In this document: piece by piece, positions 13,328-23,403 of the stretch
Position numbering within the stretch: the stretch's first letter is position 1
How the letters are laid out: each line of letters starts with the position of its first letter
DNA from: a virus
Direction: 5' to 3' (one strand)
Virus record (IMG/VR): IMGVR_UViG_3300010318_001167
Coordinates: 1-35,982 of that record
DNA: 35,982 nt
Position numbers and translations under genes: made by a program
Notes under the pieces: generated by a model
Told to the model about the DNA's origin: nothing
Databases searched by the model: none
What the model saw: the letters and a program-made list of their open reading frames with translations, nothing else

Positions 13328-14032
13328 TCATATTCCTGCAACCTCACATGCATTTTTTACTTCTACTACTTCTTCTTTATTGTTTGCAAACTGTTTCATC
13401 CAAAACGTTGCATCAATTATGTGTTCTATCATTTTAACCTGTTCATCGCTAAACTTTACTAATAACTCATCTCCTGATTTGCAAAGATAAATCATCCAGG
13501 GAGATATTTTTGCACTTCTAATATCGTGTACTGCTCTAGAAGATGAAACTTCTTTAAAATAATCTTGCCAAGGTTTATTATTTTCTTTAGCCCAACTGTC
13601 AAGATAAATGATTGTTCTTTCTAATGCCTTCATTCCGGGTTCTTTTTTTACATATACTAATAAAAATTCGTCATAAAGACTATCCTTGTGCCAATCTGCT
13701 AATTTTTTACCTTCCTTTATAAGCCATTCTGCAAATTGTTCTGGATTTAAATATTCGTTTGTTACACAACTTCTACCAAACTTTACAAACCCTTCATAGT
13801 ATTGGCTTTTTACAAAATCTTCATAAGTTTTTGGTTTAGTGGCCGCTGTGTTCATTTCATAAAACATTTGAAAAACTCTATAACCTAATCTTGTATGTGT
13901 TAAATCTTTATCTGCCATACGTCTTTTCTTAACACACATATGAACACTAAGAGTTCGTTCACCCTTAAAACTTTTTCCACACCATTTACATGTGAAATTA
14001 TTTTCCAAAAATGTCTCTGATTGATTTGTCAT
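13328..14032 (-). CDS. Zinc-finger protein of marine T4-like phages, function unknown
   Basis: A 234-aa protein. The N-terminus has a C2HC-type finger (C15, C18, H31, C33 in FTCKWCGKSFKGERTLSVHMC), followed by a basic patch (VKKRR) and a long helical domain rich in Trp/Tyr/Lys. The first codons overlap the upstream gene by 35 bp. The finger suggests nucleic-acid or protein binding. I recall similar conserved proteins in cyanophages, always without assigned function. Its place among replication and nucleotide genes suggests an early intracellular role, not a virion one. Confidence 0.65.
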   Translation of the reverse strand: MTNQSETFLENNFTCKWCGKSFKGERTLSVHMCVKKRRMADKDLTHTRLGYRVFQMFYEMNTAATKPKTYEDFVKSQYYEGFVKFGRSCVTNEYLNPEQFAEWLIKEGKKLADWHKDSLYDEFLLVYVKKEPGMKALERTIIYLDSWAKENNKPWQDYFKEVSSSRAVHDIRSAKISPWMIYLCKSGDELLVKFSDEQVKMIEHIIDATFWMKQFANNKEEVVEVKNACEVAGI

Positions 14033-16145: not shown

Positions 16146-16403
16146 CTATTTAAATTTGTTTTCCATTATGTCTTCCCAAGTAGAATATTCAATACGATCA
16201 AACGATCCTTCAGGGAAAGCAGGAGGCACCCATTTTACCGTCCTTTCTCTTTTATATATTTTTTGTAACCATACTGTCTTGCCTGACAATAGTTTTACAG
16301 GTTTCCATGCAAACCACTTTTTCCAATCTGTATATTCAGCATCAGTAGGCTGTGGTTTCAAATGTGGATACCTAGTATAAGCAGGATGGTTATAGTTCTC
16401 CAT
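16146..16403 (-). CDS. Small aromatic-rich conserved phage protein
   Basis: An 85-aa protein starting MENYNHPAYTRYPHLKPQPT, very rich in Trp, Tyr, Pro and Lys (DWKKWFAWKPVKLLSGKTVWLQKIYKRERTVKW). I recall near-identical N-termini in hypotheticals of T4-like marine phages, with no assigned role. It overlaps the kinase/nucleotidyltransferase gene by 14 bp and has its Shine-Dalgarno inside that gene. No motif is recognised. Confidence 0.7.
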   Translation of the reverse strand: MENYNHPAYTRYPHLKPQPTDAEYTDWKKWFAWKPVKLLSGKTVWLQKIYKRERTVKWVPPAFPEGSFDRIEYSTWEDIMENKFK

Positions 16404-17193
16404 CCTTTCTCATTTGTTCTCTGATTTTGGTTGCACTTATTTTTTGTGTTTCCTCATCAAGAACTTCCTCTTCAATTTTATATCCTACACCTCTGCCGTA
16501 AGTAATATTCATAATATTTGGTACAGGATAACATCTAAATTTACCTGCATATTCATAAAGTTCTTGTTCTATATTTTCGCAAATATCTTCAGGAGTCCAA
16601 GGATTATTTTCACTCAAAGGCATATCTCGAACTAATATTGCTACCTGTCCGTGTTTTGCTAGTGCCCTTTTAAATAACTTTTTGTGTCCTTCATGGAATG
16701 GTTGAAATCTTCCCAGCATCTGTGTAGTAGGTTCCTTAGATTGAAACAATGGGTCTTTAATATCCACTGCAATTAACCTAGCCCATTTTTCTATTGCTTC
16801 TTCAGTCCACCAATCTTCTTCGTTAATTTCTATATCAACATTTACAGTATCATCTGGTCTTTCAAATACTTTATTGGTATCTTCATATCGACCTTTAGAT
16901 ATAGTGTTCATCCAAATTACATATTCAGGTTTAAATTTTCTTCTTAATTCATTAGTAGGACAAACAAAATCTGCTATAGCATAATTACCATTGCCTACTG
17001 TTTTTAAACAATAGTCGTTCATTCTTTTCATTTGTCTTTCTCTGCCTTCTGGAGAGAAGTCCCAATCATTAAAAAGTTCTCTTATTTCATCTGCATTATG
17101 CCATTTAGCATTTCCTAATGTTTCAACTAGGCGTTTTGCTAACGTAGATTTACCTGAGCCTGGTAGGCCACATAGTAAAATTCTTCTATTCAT
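16390..17193 (-). CDS. Fused APS-kinase-like P-loop kinase and nucleotidyltransferase
   Basis: A 267-aa two-domain protein. The N-terminal domain carries the Walker A GLPGSGKSTLAKRL (9-22), NADEIRELFNDWDFSPEGR (33-51) and IADFVCPTNELRR (73-85), which follow adenylylsulfate-kinase (CysC) layout. The C-terminal domain carries GRFQPFHEGH (161-170) and ISATKIREQM (252-261), the HxGH and ISxTxIR motifs of cytidylyl/NMN-adenylyltransferases. Domain order is the reverse of bacterial NadR. Candidate roles are NAD salvage or nucleotide activation of a small molecule. The domain families are well supported; the substrates are not known. Shine-Dalgarno GGAG before the ATG at 17193. Confidence 0.8.
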   Translation of the reverse strand: MNRRILLCGLPGSGKSTLAKRLVETLGNAKWHNADEIRELFNDWDFSPEGRERQMKRMNDYCLKTVGNGNYAIADFVCPTNELRRKFKPEYVIWMNTISKGRYEDTNKVFERPDDTVNVDIEINEEDWWTEEAIEKWARLIAVDIKDPLFQSKEPTTQMLGRFQPFHEGHKKLFKRALAKHGQVAILVRDMPLSENNPWTPEDICENIEQELYEYAGKFRCYPVPNIMNITYGRGVGYKIEEEVLDEETQKISATKIREQMRKDGEL

Positions 17194-17997: not shown

Positions 17998-18498
17998 CTA
18001 ACTAACTAAATCAGCAACTTCAATATCTTTTACTTTATTTGCATCTTTTACAAAAAAAGCACACTTTGGATTTTCTCCAGACTCTAAAGGAACTGCTAAT
18101 AAATGTCCATTTTTAAGTTTAGGAAAAAACCATTTTACATCTTGATAAACATTTGTAATTTCTATAGGTTCACTATTAGGAAGTCTACTTGTAAGAGGAT
18201 TCATTACTAATGCTCTAAATTCTCTATTATTAAGACTTGCTAAAGGAAGTGTCTCTACACTATCAAAATCTTCATCACATAATAACACACTCCAGTCCAT
18301 TGGCAATTGAATATTAAATTCTCCAATTTGCAAACAAATAGCAGGAGCATGAAAACTCTCTAAAAAAATTAAAGGTAAGAAATAAAAGTCAACCCATTCT
18401 GGATCGGCTCCATCTAAAATACAATACCTAATATCATCTATTTCATCAGGTACGCAATCTATATCGTATGTATTATTTTCTATTGTTAGTATTTTCAT
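17998..18498 (-). CDS. Conserved early protein downstream of uvsW
   Basis: A 166-aa protein (MKILTIENNTYDIDCVPDEI...). Conserved-looking blocks include DDIRYCILDGADPEWVDFYF (21-40), MDWSVLLCDED and DVKWFFPKLKNGHLLAVPL near the middle. It is acidic, mixed alpha/beta, with no signal peptide or membrane segment. The start overlaps the uvsW stop by 4 bp and has a GGTGGA Shine-Dalgarno. I recall homologues next to uvsW in marine T4-like phages; the role is unknown. Confidence 0.65.
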   Translation of the reverse strand: MKILTIENNTYDIDCVPDEIDDIRYCILDGADPEWVDFYFLPLIFLESFHAPAICLQIGEFNIQLPMDWSVLLCDEDFDSVETLPLASLNNREFRALVMNPLTSRLPNSEPIEITNVYQDVKWFFPKLKNGHLLAVPLESGENPKCAFFVKDANKVKDIEVADLVS

Positions 18499-19952
18499 TT
18501 ATATTCCACCTTAGTTACTGTATGTCTAAAATTCTGCTCTCGGTAAAAAGCCTTTCTTTTTGTTAAATGCCTTTTACTATATTTTAAATTACTGGTAATG
18601 TCTACAACATTAACGTAATCTTTATCTTGTGCCTTTCTAATACCTCTTCCAATACTTTGTATTACTCTCACAAAACTTTTTCCTGGTTCTATTAATATTA
18701 AATTAAAGATCCTAGGAATGTTTATTCCTACCGCCGCTACTCCATATGTAGCAACAATAACCTTATTGTCCATTTCTGAAACGTCATCATAATTATCTTG
18801 CCTATCTTTTTGTTTCATAGAGCCTGATACGAATACCCAATCTGGATTATCTTCTGCTAACATTTCGCCTGTTTTAATTCTATCTATAAGAACTAGTGTA
18901 TTACCATTTTCAGCAAAACCATTAATAATTTTAGACAGTTGTTCTATTCTTTTAGAATCTGTTACGAGCCATTTAAGTTCTTGTGCATAGCCTCCAAACT
19001 CAATCATACCATCTTGTAGTTGTAATATACTGATATCTAAGTCTGCTAACACTCCCATATCCTGTAATTCTTTACTGCTCATTTTTCCTATAACAGGACC
19101 TAAACTACAAGTACAACCTACTGCTTCATATTCATCTTTAGGGATAGTTCCTGTTAATCCCCATCTGATAGGCACATGAGCAAACACACCACTCAATAAG
19201 TTTCTTAATACATCTGCTTTGGCTTTGTGTACCTCGTCCACCATAATACAAGCAACATCTTCTAAAAACTCATCTATTGGAAAATCTGCTTCGTAGTTTT
19301 TGCTTTTCTTTTCTAATATACTTAAACTTTGCCATGTACAAATAGTATGAGTTTTATCATATTCCTTTCTATCTCCATACAATACACCCACATCAAGGCC
19401 TAAGTTTTTATAGTCTTTTTCTGTTTGTACCACTAAATCCTTATTTGGTACTATAACTATTGTTCTGCCATATGGTTCACATTTATGACTTAGTACGGCA
19501 GTAATAAGTGTCTTACCAGCACCTGTGGCAATCTCTTGCAAACATTGTGTATTTTCTAAAAATCTATTTACAATATCTACTTGATAGTCCCTTAATATAA
19601 TAGGTTGTCCTTCTGCAGGATGTTTCTTAGGCCAAGCCACATGTTCATAACTTGTTTGAGATACTTGATCAAACTTGAATTCCCATGGTTTACGCAAATC
19701 CTTTATTTCTATTTCGTAACCTTCCTCGGTAACGATAGGAACAAGTTTGTCTAATAAATGGAAATATGTTCTGCCACCTATGTCGCAATACCTCACACAG
19801 CCGTCCCATCTACCTAATTTATAAGCAGGCATATGATATGCATAGGGAAGAAAGTATTTACAAGCATCAGAAATTTTACGCCTTGCTTTTACATCAAGTC
19901 CTGTGAAACGAACATTAACTTCGTCTCTAATTTCTAGAACACATTTTGCCAT
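18495..19952 (-). CDS. uvsW: DNA/RNA helicase UvsW (SF2)
   Basis: A 485-aa protein close to T4 UvsW length. It has an N-terminal substrate-recognition region, a Q-motif-like RDYQVDIV (121-128), Walker A ATGAGKT (142-148), DEVH box (239-242), LTGT-type motif III (WGLTGTI), and motif VI QSIGRGIRKAQ near 430. UvsW unwinds branched DNA and R-loops and shifts replication from origin-dependent to recombination-dependent. No Shine-Dalgarno is present; a sigma70-like promoter ends 5 bp before the ATG, predicting a leaderless early mRNA. It heads the long operon running to 12192. Confidence 0.93.
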   Translation of the reverse strand: MAKCVLEIRDEVNVRFTGLDVKARRKISDACKYFLPYAYHMPAYKLGRWDGCVRYCDIGGRTYFHLLDKLVPIVTEEGYEIEIKDLRKPWEFKFDQVSQTSYEHVAWPKKHPAEGQPIILRDYQVDIVNRFLENTQCLQEIATGAGKTLITAVLSHKCEPYGRTIVIVPNKDLVVQTEKDYKNLGLDVGVLYGDRKEYDKTHTICTWQSLSILEKKSKNYEADFPIDEFLEDVACIMVDEVHKAKADVLRNLLSGVFAHVPIRWGLTGTIPKDEYEAVGCTCSLGPVIGKMSSKELQDMGVLADLDISILQLQDGMIEFGGYAQELKWLVTDSKRIEQLSKIINGFAENGNTLVLIDRIKTGEMLAEDNPDWVFVSGSMKQKDRQDNYDDVSEMDNKVIVATYGVAAVGINIPRIFNLILIEPGKSFVRVIQSIGRGIRKAQDKDYVNVVDITSNLKYSKRHLTKRKAFYREQNFRHTVTKVEYK

Positions 19953-19957
19953 ACTGT

Positions 19958-19987
19958 ATTATACTACCAAGTGTACCCTAATGTCAA
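19958..19987 (-). promoter_or_regulatory. Early sigma70-like promoter of uvsW, inside the receptor gene end
   Basis: Minus-strand TTGACA (19982-19987), 18-bp spacer, TATAAT (19958-19963). The -35 lies in the last codons of the TonB-dependent receptor and the -10 directly follows its TAG stop. Only 5 bp separate the -10 from the uvsW ATG. Confidence 0.8.
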
Positions 19988-21937
19988 GTAATATTCTGTA
20001 CCTTGTGTATTATAAAAAGGAACAACTTCTACTACTTCGTCTGTTATGTTTTCTGCTTTAAAGGAAATTGTTAAACCATTTGTAAACTCTTTGGTTACAT
20101 ATAAGTTTAACTTATTCAAGTCTTCTAAATACTCCTGTCCTTCTTCTAATACATCATAAGGTCCAGGTGCTCTATCTAAATTAAATGCATATTTTAATCT
20201 AAAGTTTACATCAAAAAAGTTTTCGCTATATTGTAATACACCAGCAAATTTAGGTACTCTGGTTTGATCTGTATCTGTATATTTTAACATTACAAAAAGA
20301 GGACCAAAGTTATTTGCATATCTCATACCTGCTGTGGTATATTCCCCTGTGTTAGCATAGGTAGGCATAGTATAAACTGGATTATTGTCTTCTACTAATG
20401 TATAAACACACCCTAATGGCATTCCTTCTGATGCTGTATAATTAGGATCTAATACACAACCACCATATGTGCCGTCTGTATTTACGGATAGATCAGGATT
20501 TAGTTCCAATGTTGTTGTAATAACATCTGTGTAAAATCCTGGAACATATTCTATTGCTTCTTCAAAATCATACATGAATACACTTAATACACCATATCCT
20601 AATTCAACACCTACACCTTTTTCAGGCTCTAGTTCCTCATTGCCTTGTACAACTCCATCACCAAACTTTTCATATAAGTTAGGTTTTCTAAAACTGTTAC
20701 CAATGTTAAAAAAGAAGTCTCCTTTTTCTATACCCAGTCTAAGAGCATTCTGATCATCATTACCTAATCTAATACCAAAGTTATAATTTAAAATAAAGTT
20801 AGCATTGGCCTGAAAATATATGCCACCATTTTCATCTGAGTACTTTAGATCAGTTTGTGTTAAGGTGTAAATACCATTTCCATCAAGTACTTCAAAAGGA
20901 TTATTTAAATCTGGTTTTAAGAAGCCGTCCCATAAAGGCAACAAAGTACCATCATTATAACTTAAATTGTCATCTGTATAGGAACCTGGTATTGTATTGT
21001 AACGTTCGACAAGTTCTGTGCCTTCAACATTTTGCCAACTGCTGGTGTTATAATATTGTTTTTCTACATCTATACCAAATGCAACATTTAAACTATTACT
21101 AAGTTCTACTTGATTACCAATTCTAAAATAATCTCTATAACTTTCATTTGTATATGTCGGGTCTAGTTCTGTAAAGTATTCAGCAGTATTATAGTTTCTA
21201 CCTATTGTGATATAATCATTTCTAATAGCAACATTGTATCTTTGTCCTTCTTGAACACAATCATTGTTTTGAGTAAAATCATAATCAAAACAGTTGTCAT
21301 AATCATATTCGTATTCTGTAAATTTACCTACAATACTGAAGTCACCTGCATCTACATTAAACCTTGCTGTTTTGTTTTCGTAATTGTCTTCTTCGTCATT
21401 GTCATTACGAACACTACCCATACTATCTTTAACCATACTAAACTCTAACTGATCAACAGGAGCAATTCTAAAATAGTTTATTTCATCTTCTGCTCTAAGT
21501 GTTAGTCCACGTTCTATAGTGTCTTGTATTAGTACTGTTCCAGCCATACTACCTGAGCCGTATAAAACACCGTTAGCACCAGATATAACTTTTACTGTTT
21601 GACCACTAGCAAAGTCATGTCCAAAGTCATACCAACTTGCTCCAGGGTCGTTTGCTGGAATACCATTTACATAAACTGATGTATGTGATGTTTGAGCACC
21701 TCGCTCATTGTATCCTACAAAGCCACCATAGCCACCTGCATTCCAGGTAAAGGCTGGCGTAATAGCACTCATTAAACTACTGCTAGTAATTGGATTTGCT
21801 TTAATTGTTTTTTCTTGTTGTGCTGTCACAACAATTTCTTCTATTTCATCTGCAAATGCCCATGCAGTAAGAAGCGGTAAACATATTATAAATGTAATCT
21901 TTAATATGTGTTTGTGAAAAAATTCTTCAAAATTCAT
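19964..21937 (-). CDS. TonB-dependent outer-membrane receptor (BtuB-like) on a phage genome
   Basis: A 657-aa complete protein. A signal peptide (basic/His N-region, hydrophobic 11-25, cleavage predicted after AFA29) leads to a TonB box EEIVVTA (33-39). A plug domain of about 100 residues follows, with NERGAQTSHTSVYVNGIP (77-94) and ISGANGVLYGSGSMAGTVLI (118-137) as in the BtuB/colicin-receptor family. The rest is barrel-like: alternating aromatic strands, acidic Tyr/Asn-rich loops, FRKPNLYEKFGDG and NTGEYTTAGMRY motifs, and a terminal beta-signal ending in Trp. No frameshift or truncation is seen. It has a strong Shine-Dalgarno (CGGAG), its own early promoter and an upstream terminator. Such receptors import vitamin B12, siderophores or sugars and serve as phage receptors. 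The ligand is unknown; import or superinfection exclusion are inferences. Confidence 0.93.
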   Translation of the reverse strand: MNFEEFFHKHILKITFIICLPLLTAWAFADEIEEIVVTAQQEKTIKANPITSSSLMSAITPAFTWNAGGYGGFVGYNERGAQTSHTSVYVNGIPANDPGASWYDFGHDFASGQTVKVISGANGVLYGSGSMAGTVLIQDTIERGLTLRAEDEINYFRIAPVDQLEFSMVKDSMGSVRNDNDEEDNYENKTARFNVDAGDFSIVGKFTEYEYDYDNCFDYDFTQNNDCVQEGQRYNVAIRNDYITIGRNYNTAEYFTELDPTYTNESYRDYFRIGNQVELSNSLNVAFGIDVEKQYYNTSSWQNVEGTELVERYNTIPGSYTDDNLSYNDGTLLPLWDGFLKPDLNNPFEVLDGNGIYTLTQTDLKYSDENGGIYFQANANFILNYNFGIRLGNDDQNALRLGIEKGDFFFNIGNSFRKPNLYEKFGDGVVQGNEELEPEKGVGVELGYGVLSVFMYDFEEAIEYVPGFYTDVITTTLELNPDLSVNTDGTYGGCVLDPNYTASEGMPLGCVYTLVEDNNPVYTMPTYANTGEYTTAGMRYANNFGPLFVMLKYTDTDQTRVPKFAGVLQYSENFFDVNFRLKYAFNLDRAPGPYDVLEEGQEYLEDLNKLNLYVTKEFTNGLTISFKAENITDEVVEVVPFYNTQGTEYYLTLGYTW

Positions 21938-21978
21938 TTTATCTCCGTGACCATTAAGTCATAATAGTTTTAGTATTA

Positions 21979-22006
21979 ATTATACACGAACAATATATTT
22001 TGTCAA
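21979..22006 (-). promoter_or_regulatory. Early sigma70-like promoter of the TonB-dependent receptor
   Basis: Minus-strand TTGACA (22001-22006), 16-bp spacer, TATAAT (21979-21984), about 40 bp upstream of the receptor ATG and just past the terminator of the AAA ATPase gene. Confidence 0.85.
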
Positions 22007-22009
22007 GCA

Positions 22010-22046
22010 TAAAAAAGAAGAAACCCCCAACTAATTGAGGGTTTCT
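22010..22046 (-). terminator. Intrinsic terminator after the AAA ATPase gene
   Basis: Minus-strand AGAAACCC / GGGTTTCT stem (22039-22046 with 22019-22026), 12-nt interior, followed by a T-rich tract (TCTTTTTT). It separates the ATPase unit from the receptor unit. Confidence 0.85.
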
Positions 22047-22097: not shown

Positions 22098-23129
22098 CTA
22101 CTTATCGATCAGTCTCCTCATGCAAGTTGACTCTGCCAATTGTTTCCAATTATCGAAATCCATCTTGGCCAAGTCAGCAATTTTAAGTACCATTCTTAAA
22201 CTAAGTTCCCTAAGTCTAGCACTTTTCAAAACCATAAAGTCTACTATTTCTTTTTCAAATTCTTTACTAAAGCCATACTCTTTAAGCATACCGTCTCTAA
22301 TAATTTGATTAATTCTAATAAACTTATCACTAGTAGTGTCCATTCCAAGATCTATATAATGACATCTACTCATTAATGCTTCTAAATGATCTTTAATCTT
22401 TTTACTTCTAACATTTTCAAAATTAACATTAGTAATAAAAATACAACCACCTTGGAATTCAAACCTATCAGGTATACCTTCTCTTCTTAAAGCCTGGGAT
22501 TCTGCTTTCCAACTAATTGTTCTCTTTTTACCAGAGTCCAATACAGCCTTCAACATGTTCAAACAAACTTCGTCAAACAAAATACTGTCACAGTCATCAA
22601 ATACTAGGATATCACCTTTGTTTGAATTGTTAAACAATGTTTGATACAATCCAATTGGAGTCATCGAACCTTTAACTACTTCAGTTCTTGGAGGTTGTCC
22701 AGCAAGTTTAGTCATTGAGTCATACTCATCAAGTATAGTTTCTACACCAAAACTTTTACCAACTCCTGGAGGGCCACTTACAATTAGTCCTCTTACAGTA
22801 CCATTTGCTACTGCATCAGTCATTTGATCTAAAACAGCAAACCTACCTGCAATTCTATCCATTGCCTGTTGTTGCGTTTCTTTTTTCTTTTTAGTCTTCT
22901 TGACTGGCATTACAGAAATGTAATCTTCTTTACTAGCAGGTTCAACACTAAGTGGTGAGTCAACTAAAATTCTAACTCTTTTAGCATTTGGTCCCATTAA
23001 AGAACTACCATCTACAGTAACAAAAGCACCTTTCTTACCAAAGGTTAAGGGTTTTACTACTGGGAATACCGCATCTTTAATAGGTGCATTACGGTAAGTA
23101 CCTTTTTTTATTTTTACAAAGTTTTCCAT
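22098..23129 (-). CDS. AAA+ ATPase of marine T4-like phages
   Basis: A 343-aa protein from the ATG at 23129, which has GGGAGG 6 bp upstream; an in-frame GTG at 23141 would start inside that site and is rejected. After about 75 N-terminal residues and a Lys-rich linker (KKTKKKKE) come Walker A GPPGVGKS (119-126), Walker B ILVFDDCD (174-181), a sensor-1-like FITNVNF and an arginine-rich lid. It is not the gp44 clamp loader: length, N-terminal extension and motif spacing differ. It may remodel a phage or host complex. It has its own early promoter, terminator and 3' hairpin, so it is separately controlled. Confidence 0.85.
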   Translation of the reverse strand: MENFVKIKKGTYRNAPIKDAVFPVVKPLTFGKKGAFVTVDGSSLMGPNAKRVRILVDSPLSVEPASKEDYISVMPVKKTKKKKETQQQAMDRIAGRFAVLDQMTDAVANGTVRGLIVSGPPGVGKSFGVETILDEYDSMTKLAGQPPRTEVVKGSMTPIGLYQTLFNNSNKGDILVFDDCDSILFDEVCLNMLKAVLDSGKKRTISWKAESQALRREGIPDRFEFQGGCIFITNVNFENVRSKKIKDHLEALMSRCHYIDLGMDTTSDKFIRINQIIRDGMLKEYGFSKEFEKEIVDFMVLKSARLRELSLRMVLKIADLAKMDFDNWKQLAESTCMRRLIDK

Positions 23130-23164
23130 TTTTCCTCCCACGGATTAATTTAACTTATAAAACT

Positions 23165-23192
23165 ATTATAACAAATTTTAAGTATTTGTCAA
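23165..23192 (-). promoter_or_regulatory. Early sigma70-like promoter of the AAA ATPase
   Basis: Minus-strand TTGACA (23187-23192), 16-bp spacer, TATAAT (23165-23170), 36 bp upstream of the ATG at 23129. Confidence 0.85.
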
Positions 23193-23199
23193 CCTTCTA

Positions 23200-23343
23200 T
23201 TAAGAAAAAATTGAGATTAAAATTAAAATTCCTAATACAACACCAAAGAATTCTCCAATACCTTGCGATGCTAGATCAAATATTTCACTAAAAGTCCAAA
23301 CTATAGAACCTATTATTCCTAGTGTTGCTAAAAATGTTATCAT
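23200..23343 (-). CDS. 47-aa hydrophobic membrane protein
   Basis: ATG at 23343 with AGGAG 6 bp upstream, TAA at 23200. It begins MITFLATLGIIGSIVWTFSE and ends GVVLGILILISIFS: two hydrophobic segments (about 2-18 and 33-47) joined by an acidic turn (SEIFDLASQGIGEF), i.e. a likely helical hairpin in the inner membrane. A dedicated sigma70-like promoter lies 33 bp upstream. Size and topology resemble small phage membrane effectors (superinfection exclusion, lysis timing), but no motif identifies it. Confidence 0.75.
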   Translation of the reverse strand: MITFLATLGIIGSIVWTFSEIFDLASQGIGEFFGVVLGILILISIFS

Positions 23344-23375: not shown

Positions 23376-23403
23376 AGTATAGCATTTTTTGGAGTATTGT
23401 CAA
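23376..23403 (-). promoter_or_regulatory. Early sigma70-like promoter of the 47-aa membrane protein
   Basis: Minus-strand TTGACA (23398-23403), 16-bp spacer, TATACT (23376-23381). It lies just past the stop of the gene at 23409. Confidence 0.8.

Follow-up and report, generated by a model that had tools for sequence, protein, structure and literature searches.

We found that an uncultured phage lineage carries an intact gene for a TonB-dependent transporter (TBDT) in a slot between the genes for an AAA ATPase and a UvsW-like DNA helicase. The gene was read in the window, the whole 35,982-base record from the viral collection that was analysed here, and it is nearly fixed in this lineage. The phage TBDTs are an old phage family and not a recently captured host gene, and whole or nearly whole alleles pass between phages by recombination at the gene ends. 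We lean towards the view that the protein is a phage-native TonB-dependent outer-membrane importer, energised by the TonB of the host, that would raise the micronutrient uptake of the infected cell.

Results

The gene and its phage

The gene is a single open frame of 657 codons plus a stop on the minus strand of the window (Table 1), and the plus strand across the same positions has many stops. Relatives with 44–96% identity lie at 24 further loci and have no internal stop in the matched stretches, so the frame is not a product of chance. An earlier sequence-only reading had claimed an intact TBDT, which the uninterrupted frame bears out, with a signal peptide, TonB box and Plug domain all present; it had also placed the gene between uvsW and an AAA ATPase gene and on their strand, which holds for all three genes and can now be specified as minus. 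The hydrophobic leader ends in AFA and the protein in GYTW, and among PHROG families it matches only phrog_5687, which has no stated function.

Table 1. Features of the TBDT gene and its slot in the window.
Feature	Position	Strand	Basis or remark
TBDT gene, 657 aa	19964-21937	-	stop codon 19964-19966
Signal peptide, residues 1-29, AFA then DE	21851-21937	-	predicted, by inspection
TonB box IEEIVVTA, residues 32-39	21821-21844	-	by inspection; conserved in family
Plug domain PF07715, residues 37-134	21536-21829	-	Pfam match
Predicted transmembrane beta-barrel, residues 144-657, with invariant C216/C227 pair	19967-21508	-	model
GGAG ribosome-binding site 5' of the TBDT ATG	21943-21946	-	by inspection
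Perfect sigma70-type promoter TTGACA-16-TATAAT before TBDT	21979-22006	-	consensus match
Terminator-like hairpin between AAA ATPase and TBDT promoter	22019-22046	-	
Perfect promoter TTGACA-18-TATAAT in TBDT 3' end, before uvsW	19958-19987	-	consensus match
AAA ATPase (phrog_1250), upstream border of TBDT slot	22098-23141	-	
UvsW-like DNA helicase, downstream border of TBDT slot	18495-19952	-	

The TBDT sits among replication genes of T4 type (UvsW, UvsX, Ssb, helicase and primase), and to that extent the earlier label 'T4-like' stands; the window terminase, however, is closest to the PA5oct group of jumbo phages (57%), and the contig of one relative spans 250 kb. We regard the source phage as a member of a jumbo myovirus lineage that is uncultured and distinct from T4 itself. 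The Pseudomonas jumbo phages of the PA5oct group are its nearest named relatives, also by the AAA ATPase (48%), but a search of the phage collection found no TBDT relative in them, and the same collection gave no DNA-level match of the window. A clue to the host was sought: the window contains no tRNA, and the consensus promoters suit many proteobacteria.

The window holds other genes of note on the minus strand. A hydrophobic 47-aa ORF (23200-23343) separates the AAA ATPase gene from its upstream neighbour and is accompanied by a promoter-like TTGACA-16-TATACT at 23376-23403; an apparent fusion joins a P-loop kinase domain to a cytidylyltransferase-like domain (16390-17193); and a phage protein at 13328-14032 weakly matches a C2H2 zinc finger in its N-terminal region (E 5e-4, below the cut-off).

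Spread of the family

The TBDT family occurs on about 80 viral contigs, down to about 30% identity. Locus searches with the TBDT (24 loci) and the AAA ATPase (80 loci) as queries were scored jointly, and the slot between the AAA ATPase and UvsW genes was fully visible in 49 distinct contigs. It holds a TBDT in 44 of these (46 loci) and is empty in the other 5, where it is 104-113 nt long; 22 further loci have a TBDT and a slot truncated where the contig stops.

A sister set (L007-L012, L014, L016-L019 and L024) has no AAA or UvsW gene near the TBDT. In the two of these loci that were read fully, a gene of the MTA/SAH-nucleosidase superfamily lies directly upstream (L012 9444-9989 and L017 9444-9995, both plus strand) and ends 2 nt before the TBDT start or touches it, and large genes, structural in kind as judged by eye, surround the TBDT. 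No isolated phage carrying the family was found in the phage collection, whose BtuB matches include plain bacterial sequence, namely Salmonella contigs annotated with 16S rRNA and Acinetobacter contigs.

Two leader types occur within the family. The leader MNxFDKNFHxNFSPLYxxFxFMLFMLWASEAKA begins most of its TBDTs, even distant members, and also opens two ORFs unrelated to TBDTs, one of 159 aa (L107 7305-7784, minus strand) and one of 61 aa (L106 18222-18407, plus strand); it is perhaps a phage-specific secretion leader shuffled between genes. Near the shorter of these ORFs lies a DUF481 outer-membrane-type protein with a signal peptide (L106 17169-17831, plus strand; E 5e-18).

Origin

Cellular relatives were sought in a sample of two bacterial classes and by a motif scan. 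The scan covered 84,980 species genomes without detecting a relative of the family, and a profile search of 369 gammaproteobacterial and 289 alphaproteobacterial genomes returned distant matches only (best E 8e-16). A tree that also included BtuB and 14 bacterial proteins joined all 25 phage proteins in a single clade (100/100), whose stem measures 2.58 changes per site. The sister group of the phage clade is uncertain, since the bacterial part of the tree has several long branches; the grouping of the phage TBDTs with one another is well supported. We rejected a recent capture from a host on account of this long-stemmed clade and the lack of a close cellular relative. SAR86 was likewise rejected as donor: 18 genomes reached through their proteorhodopsin loci, mostly SAR86, gave matches of E 2e-6 or weaker. 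The search and tree that the sequence-only reading had proposed thus give a single phage clade, with only distant relatives in some 660 proteobacterial genomes.

Selection and allele exchange

The TBDT is under selection, as had been supposed earlier from the intact frame together with a proposal to measure dN/dS, and this selection is purifying. In pairwise Nei-Gojobori comparisons of the window with seven relatives, dN/dS is 0.12-0.24 for the whole gene and 0.06-0.15 for the TonB box and plug.

The history of the gene differs from that of its flanks. Between the window and L001, dS is 0.17 in the TBDT as against 1.26 in the AAA ATPase and 1.18 in UvsW; between L072 and L073 the amino-acid identities run the other way, at 97% for the AAA ATPase, 53% for the TBDT and 92% for UvsW. 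Nucleotide identity in 100-base steps shifts sharply at the TBDT borders, in both directions. Together, the differing history and the sharp borders show that whole or nearly whole alleles pass between phages, recombining at the gene ends. In the pair of the window and L001 the leader differs (dN 0.70, versus 0.008 in the plug), which puts the breakpoint there near the border of leader and mature protein. The barrel diverges fast. The earlier reading, which is partly supported overall, had not foreseen a phage family that is old, almost fixed and passed between phages one allele at a time.

Plug, TonB box and barrel

The window TBDT matches a full-length Plug (PF07715) above the cut-off (E 6e-10), and the domain was matched in all 29 family members compared, among which E33 and V37 of the TonB box are invariant. 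In the same Pfam search it does not reach the barrel family PF00593 (2 of the 29 members do), so the barrel assignment rests on a predicted model. This AlphaFold2 model, built on an alignment of 29 relatives, is of moderate confidence (mean pLDDT 70, pTM 0.67); it fits whole plugged barrels (Z 33) in overall fold, with a count of 22 strands as a candidate.

BtuB of Escherichia coli (PDB 1NQE, 2GSK) is the closest known protein by both routes, in keeping with the BtuB-like character noted earlier. Residues 31-657 of the model align with BtuB 8-594 at Z 33.1 (rmsd 3.1, 465 residues aligned, 19% identity), with other TBDTs nearly tied by Z (FyuA, 32.1) but lower in identity (11-16% versus 19-20%), and BtuB ranks first in a PDB profile search with the family (E 6e-16). 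The phage protein, as predicted, and BtuB are plugged barrels of similar length with a TonB box. Of the 29 members, 26 match the NCBIfam model of B12 receptors (TIGR01779), though far below its cut-off (best E 4e-21), and the window TBDT misses the curated BtuB equivalog cut-offs widely (18.7 bits versus 599.7 for TIGR01779; 31.7 versus 836 for NF007926).

Conservation is uneven along the protein. The plug stretches aligned with the BtuB apical loops are among the best-conserved parts of the family, with a mean pairwise identity of 69-72% versus 45% in the barrel strands. An acidic DNxExD stretch in the barrel part is invariant and lines up with BtuB TDND; for the other residues of the calcium site there is no clear alignment. 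We take TDND to be part of that site in BtuB. A deep clade lacks the terminal aromatic residue, and inserts are present in some members and not in others, which makes the details of the barrel flexible. The phage proteins differ from BtuB in their low identity to it in structural alignment (about 20%), in an invariant loop cysteine pair (C216/C227, 29 of 29 members) absent from BtuB, and in the setting of the gene, which has no riboswitch and lies in a phage replication block.

Promoters

The only three perfect sigma70-type promoters in the window, called as consensus matches, precede three consecutive genes, those for the AAA ATPase (23165-23192, minus strand), the TBDT and UvsW, where shuffled sequence would yield 0.10; the last of them sits in the final TBDT codons. 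The TBDT promoter position scores 11-12 of 12 matches in main-clade loci and is absent in the deeper clade (for example, L080, L093 and L097), in which the TBDT closely follows the AAA ATPase gene. Terminator-like hairpins number 3 in the scanned stretch versus 2.3 expected, which is weak evidence alone. That promoters of host type stand among the replication genes suggests that the TBDT is expressed early; the earlier placing of the gene inside an early or replication block was right, and the gene has a strong promoter of its own in addition.

Candidate ligands

Taken alone, the identity of the ligand is a matter for a tentative best guess, a corrinoid such as vitamin B12 or one of its relatives, with iron or another metal complex as the next candidate and a real alternative. 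What favours a corrinoid is the kinship with BtuB, the B12-binding radical-SAM proteins of related records and the nucleosidase gene coupled to the TBDT in the sister set. Records G007 and G011 show both Pfam domains of such radical-SAM proteins, G001 and G006 have homologues, and G691 has a B12-binding match; G001, G006 and G691 also have a TBDT. Against a corrinoid, G011 encodes the radical-SAM protein and yet has an empty slot (L101), and most fragments, which are incomplete, lack a B12-binding gene. Cobalamin use by these proteins is putative; their genes lie at L229 168-2057, L230 430-2265, L228 3-1640 and L231 1-1731, all on the minus strand, and one adjoins a gene resembling nucleotide-sugar epimerases. 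A need for B12 through a class II ribonucleotide reductase was considered and rejected, since the enzyme in the relative's record that was read is class I (NrdA with NrdB), which has no B12 requirement; this enzyme also counts against a corrinoid, as do the B12-receptor scores far below the curated cut-offs. No cobalamin riboswitch was found.

Discussion

Under the reading that we favour, TonB-driven import, the phage would infect a Gram-negative cell whose RNA polymerase would transcribe the TBDT from the gene's own consensus promoter. The product would be secreted, cleaved and inserted in the outer membrane as a plugged barrel, as its predicted fold and leader suggest, and host TonB-ExbBD would pull the TonB box and open the plug, a step to which the conservation of both points. 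Uptake of a scarce micronutrient would then rise while the jumbo phage infection runs, the early-made importer feeding the infected cell. No TonB gene was found in the 12 phage records searched. Import is favoured because a passive mask or decoy requires neither TonB box nor plug, and both are kept; the divergence of the barrel and the swapping of alleles probably reflect exposed parts that other phages or bacteriocins target, or that are fitted to different hosts or ligand forms. Nutrient uptake is also the best supported of the three functions that the sequence-only reading had offered, through the conserved TonB box and plug and the B12-binding radical-SAM proteins of some relatives. The five contigs without a TBDT in the slot count against it.

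A second of those functions, surface retyping or superinfection exclusion, is unlikely but deserves weight. The phage TBDT would crowd out, replace or outcompete, for the TonB or BAM machinery, a host TBDT that the phage itself or its rivals use as receptor. Gene-precise exchange of alleles between phages is the pattern of surface-specificity genes, and the fast divergence of the barrel and the host-type promoter are in keeping with such a role; TBDTs are, moreover, often phage receptors, and phages block them (Cor on FhuA, PMC11436027). However, the exclusion factors known so far that act in this way are small inhibitors and not whole transporters, the strong conservation of TonB box and plug would be unneeded unless the phage TBDT acts by competing for TonB, and the new TBDT might itself be a door for other phages. 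Exclusion is less supported than uptake, but the data fit either, and the two could both be true at once.

We consider it improbable that the protein is an outer-membrane barrel with some other role (membrane integrity, a metabolite pore or help in lysis) to which import is incidental. The missing terminal aromatic of the deep clade, the variable inserts and the other outer-membrane-type protein (DUF481) of a related record would suit such a role, but the best-conserved parts are those that mark an importer, the TonB box and the plug. A decoy shed on vesicles or debris at lysis, binding rival phages or bacteriocins, is very improbable: apart from its being surface-exposed and variable in its outer parts, we found no positive support for this third earlier proposal, and the TonB box and plug are retained and the host-type promoter lies in the replication block, not among late genes. 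Scarcely credible is an assembly chimera, named earlier as a possible refutation, or a recent host-gene capture without phage function, for although the TBDT borders show abrupt shifts in nucleotide identity to relatives, the phage proteins group in a single long-stemmed clade, selection is purifying, no close cellular relative was found, and tens of independent contigs (44 distinct ones) have this gene in this slot, which excludes a chimera as far as sequence can show.

Some precedents for phage TBDTs exist. The marine megaphage Mar_Mega_1, in the part of its description available (PMC9723777), has a full SusC-type TBDT that has been proposed to raise uptake (BFVD A0A8D9FQQ5), and the SusC of an uncultured marine phage was the only clear TBDT among the viral structures matched in our fold search. 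It differs in type, in length (805 aa) and in its 12% identity to the window TBDT in the fold match, and that part of the source reports it from single genomes and describes no lineage-wide slot or allele exchange. Pelagiphage Skadi-1 likewise has a gene annotated as a TBDT, but, in the portion of the paper available (PMC10504331), it lies among structural genes and its authors treat it as a clue to the receptor used in adsorption; the phage collection gave no match to the window TBDT family. A search of full-text literature, with subscription papers mostly outside it, found no publication on the family described here. In the sources as far as they were available, phage TBDTs have isolated precedents, and none was found for an ancient, near-fixed and allele-swapped family.

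Versions of a TBDT that vary between phages in a fixed slot suggest that viruses remodel the uptake or the surface display of the infected cell. More speculatively, and with considerable doubt on our part, the slot might be an exchangeable outer-membrane specificity module, its allele resetting import and surface, swapped like tail fibres and partly tied to the phage B12-binding radical-SAM enzymes. Phages use TBDTs as doors, and seawater is poor in vitamin B12 and iron. With phages that make their own TBDT as a near-fixed lineage gene, viral change of outer-membrane uptake becomes testable, as does retyping of the infected-cell surface, with natural controls in the five contigs whose slot is empty and in the alleles that were swapped.
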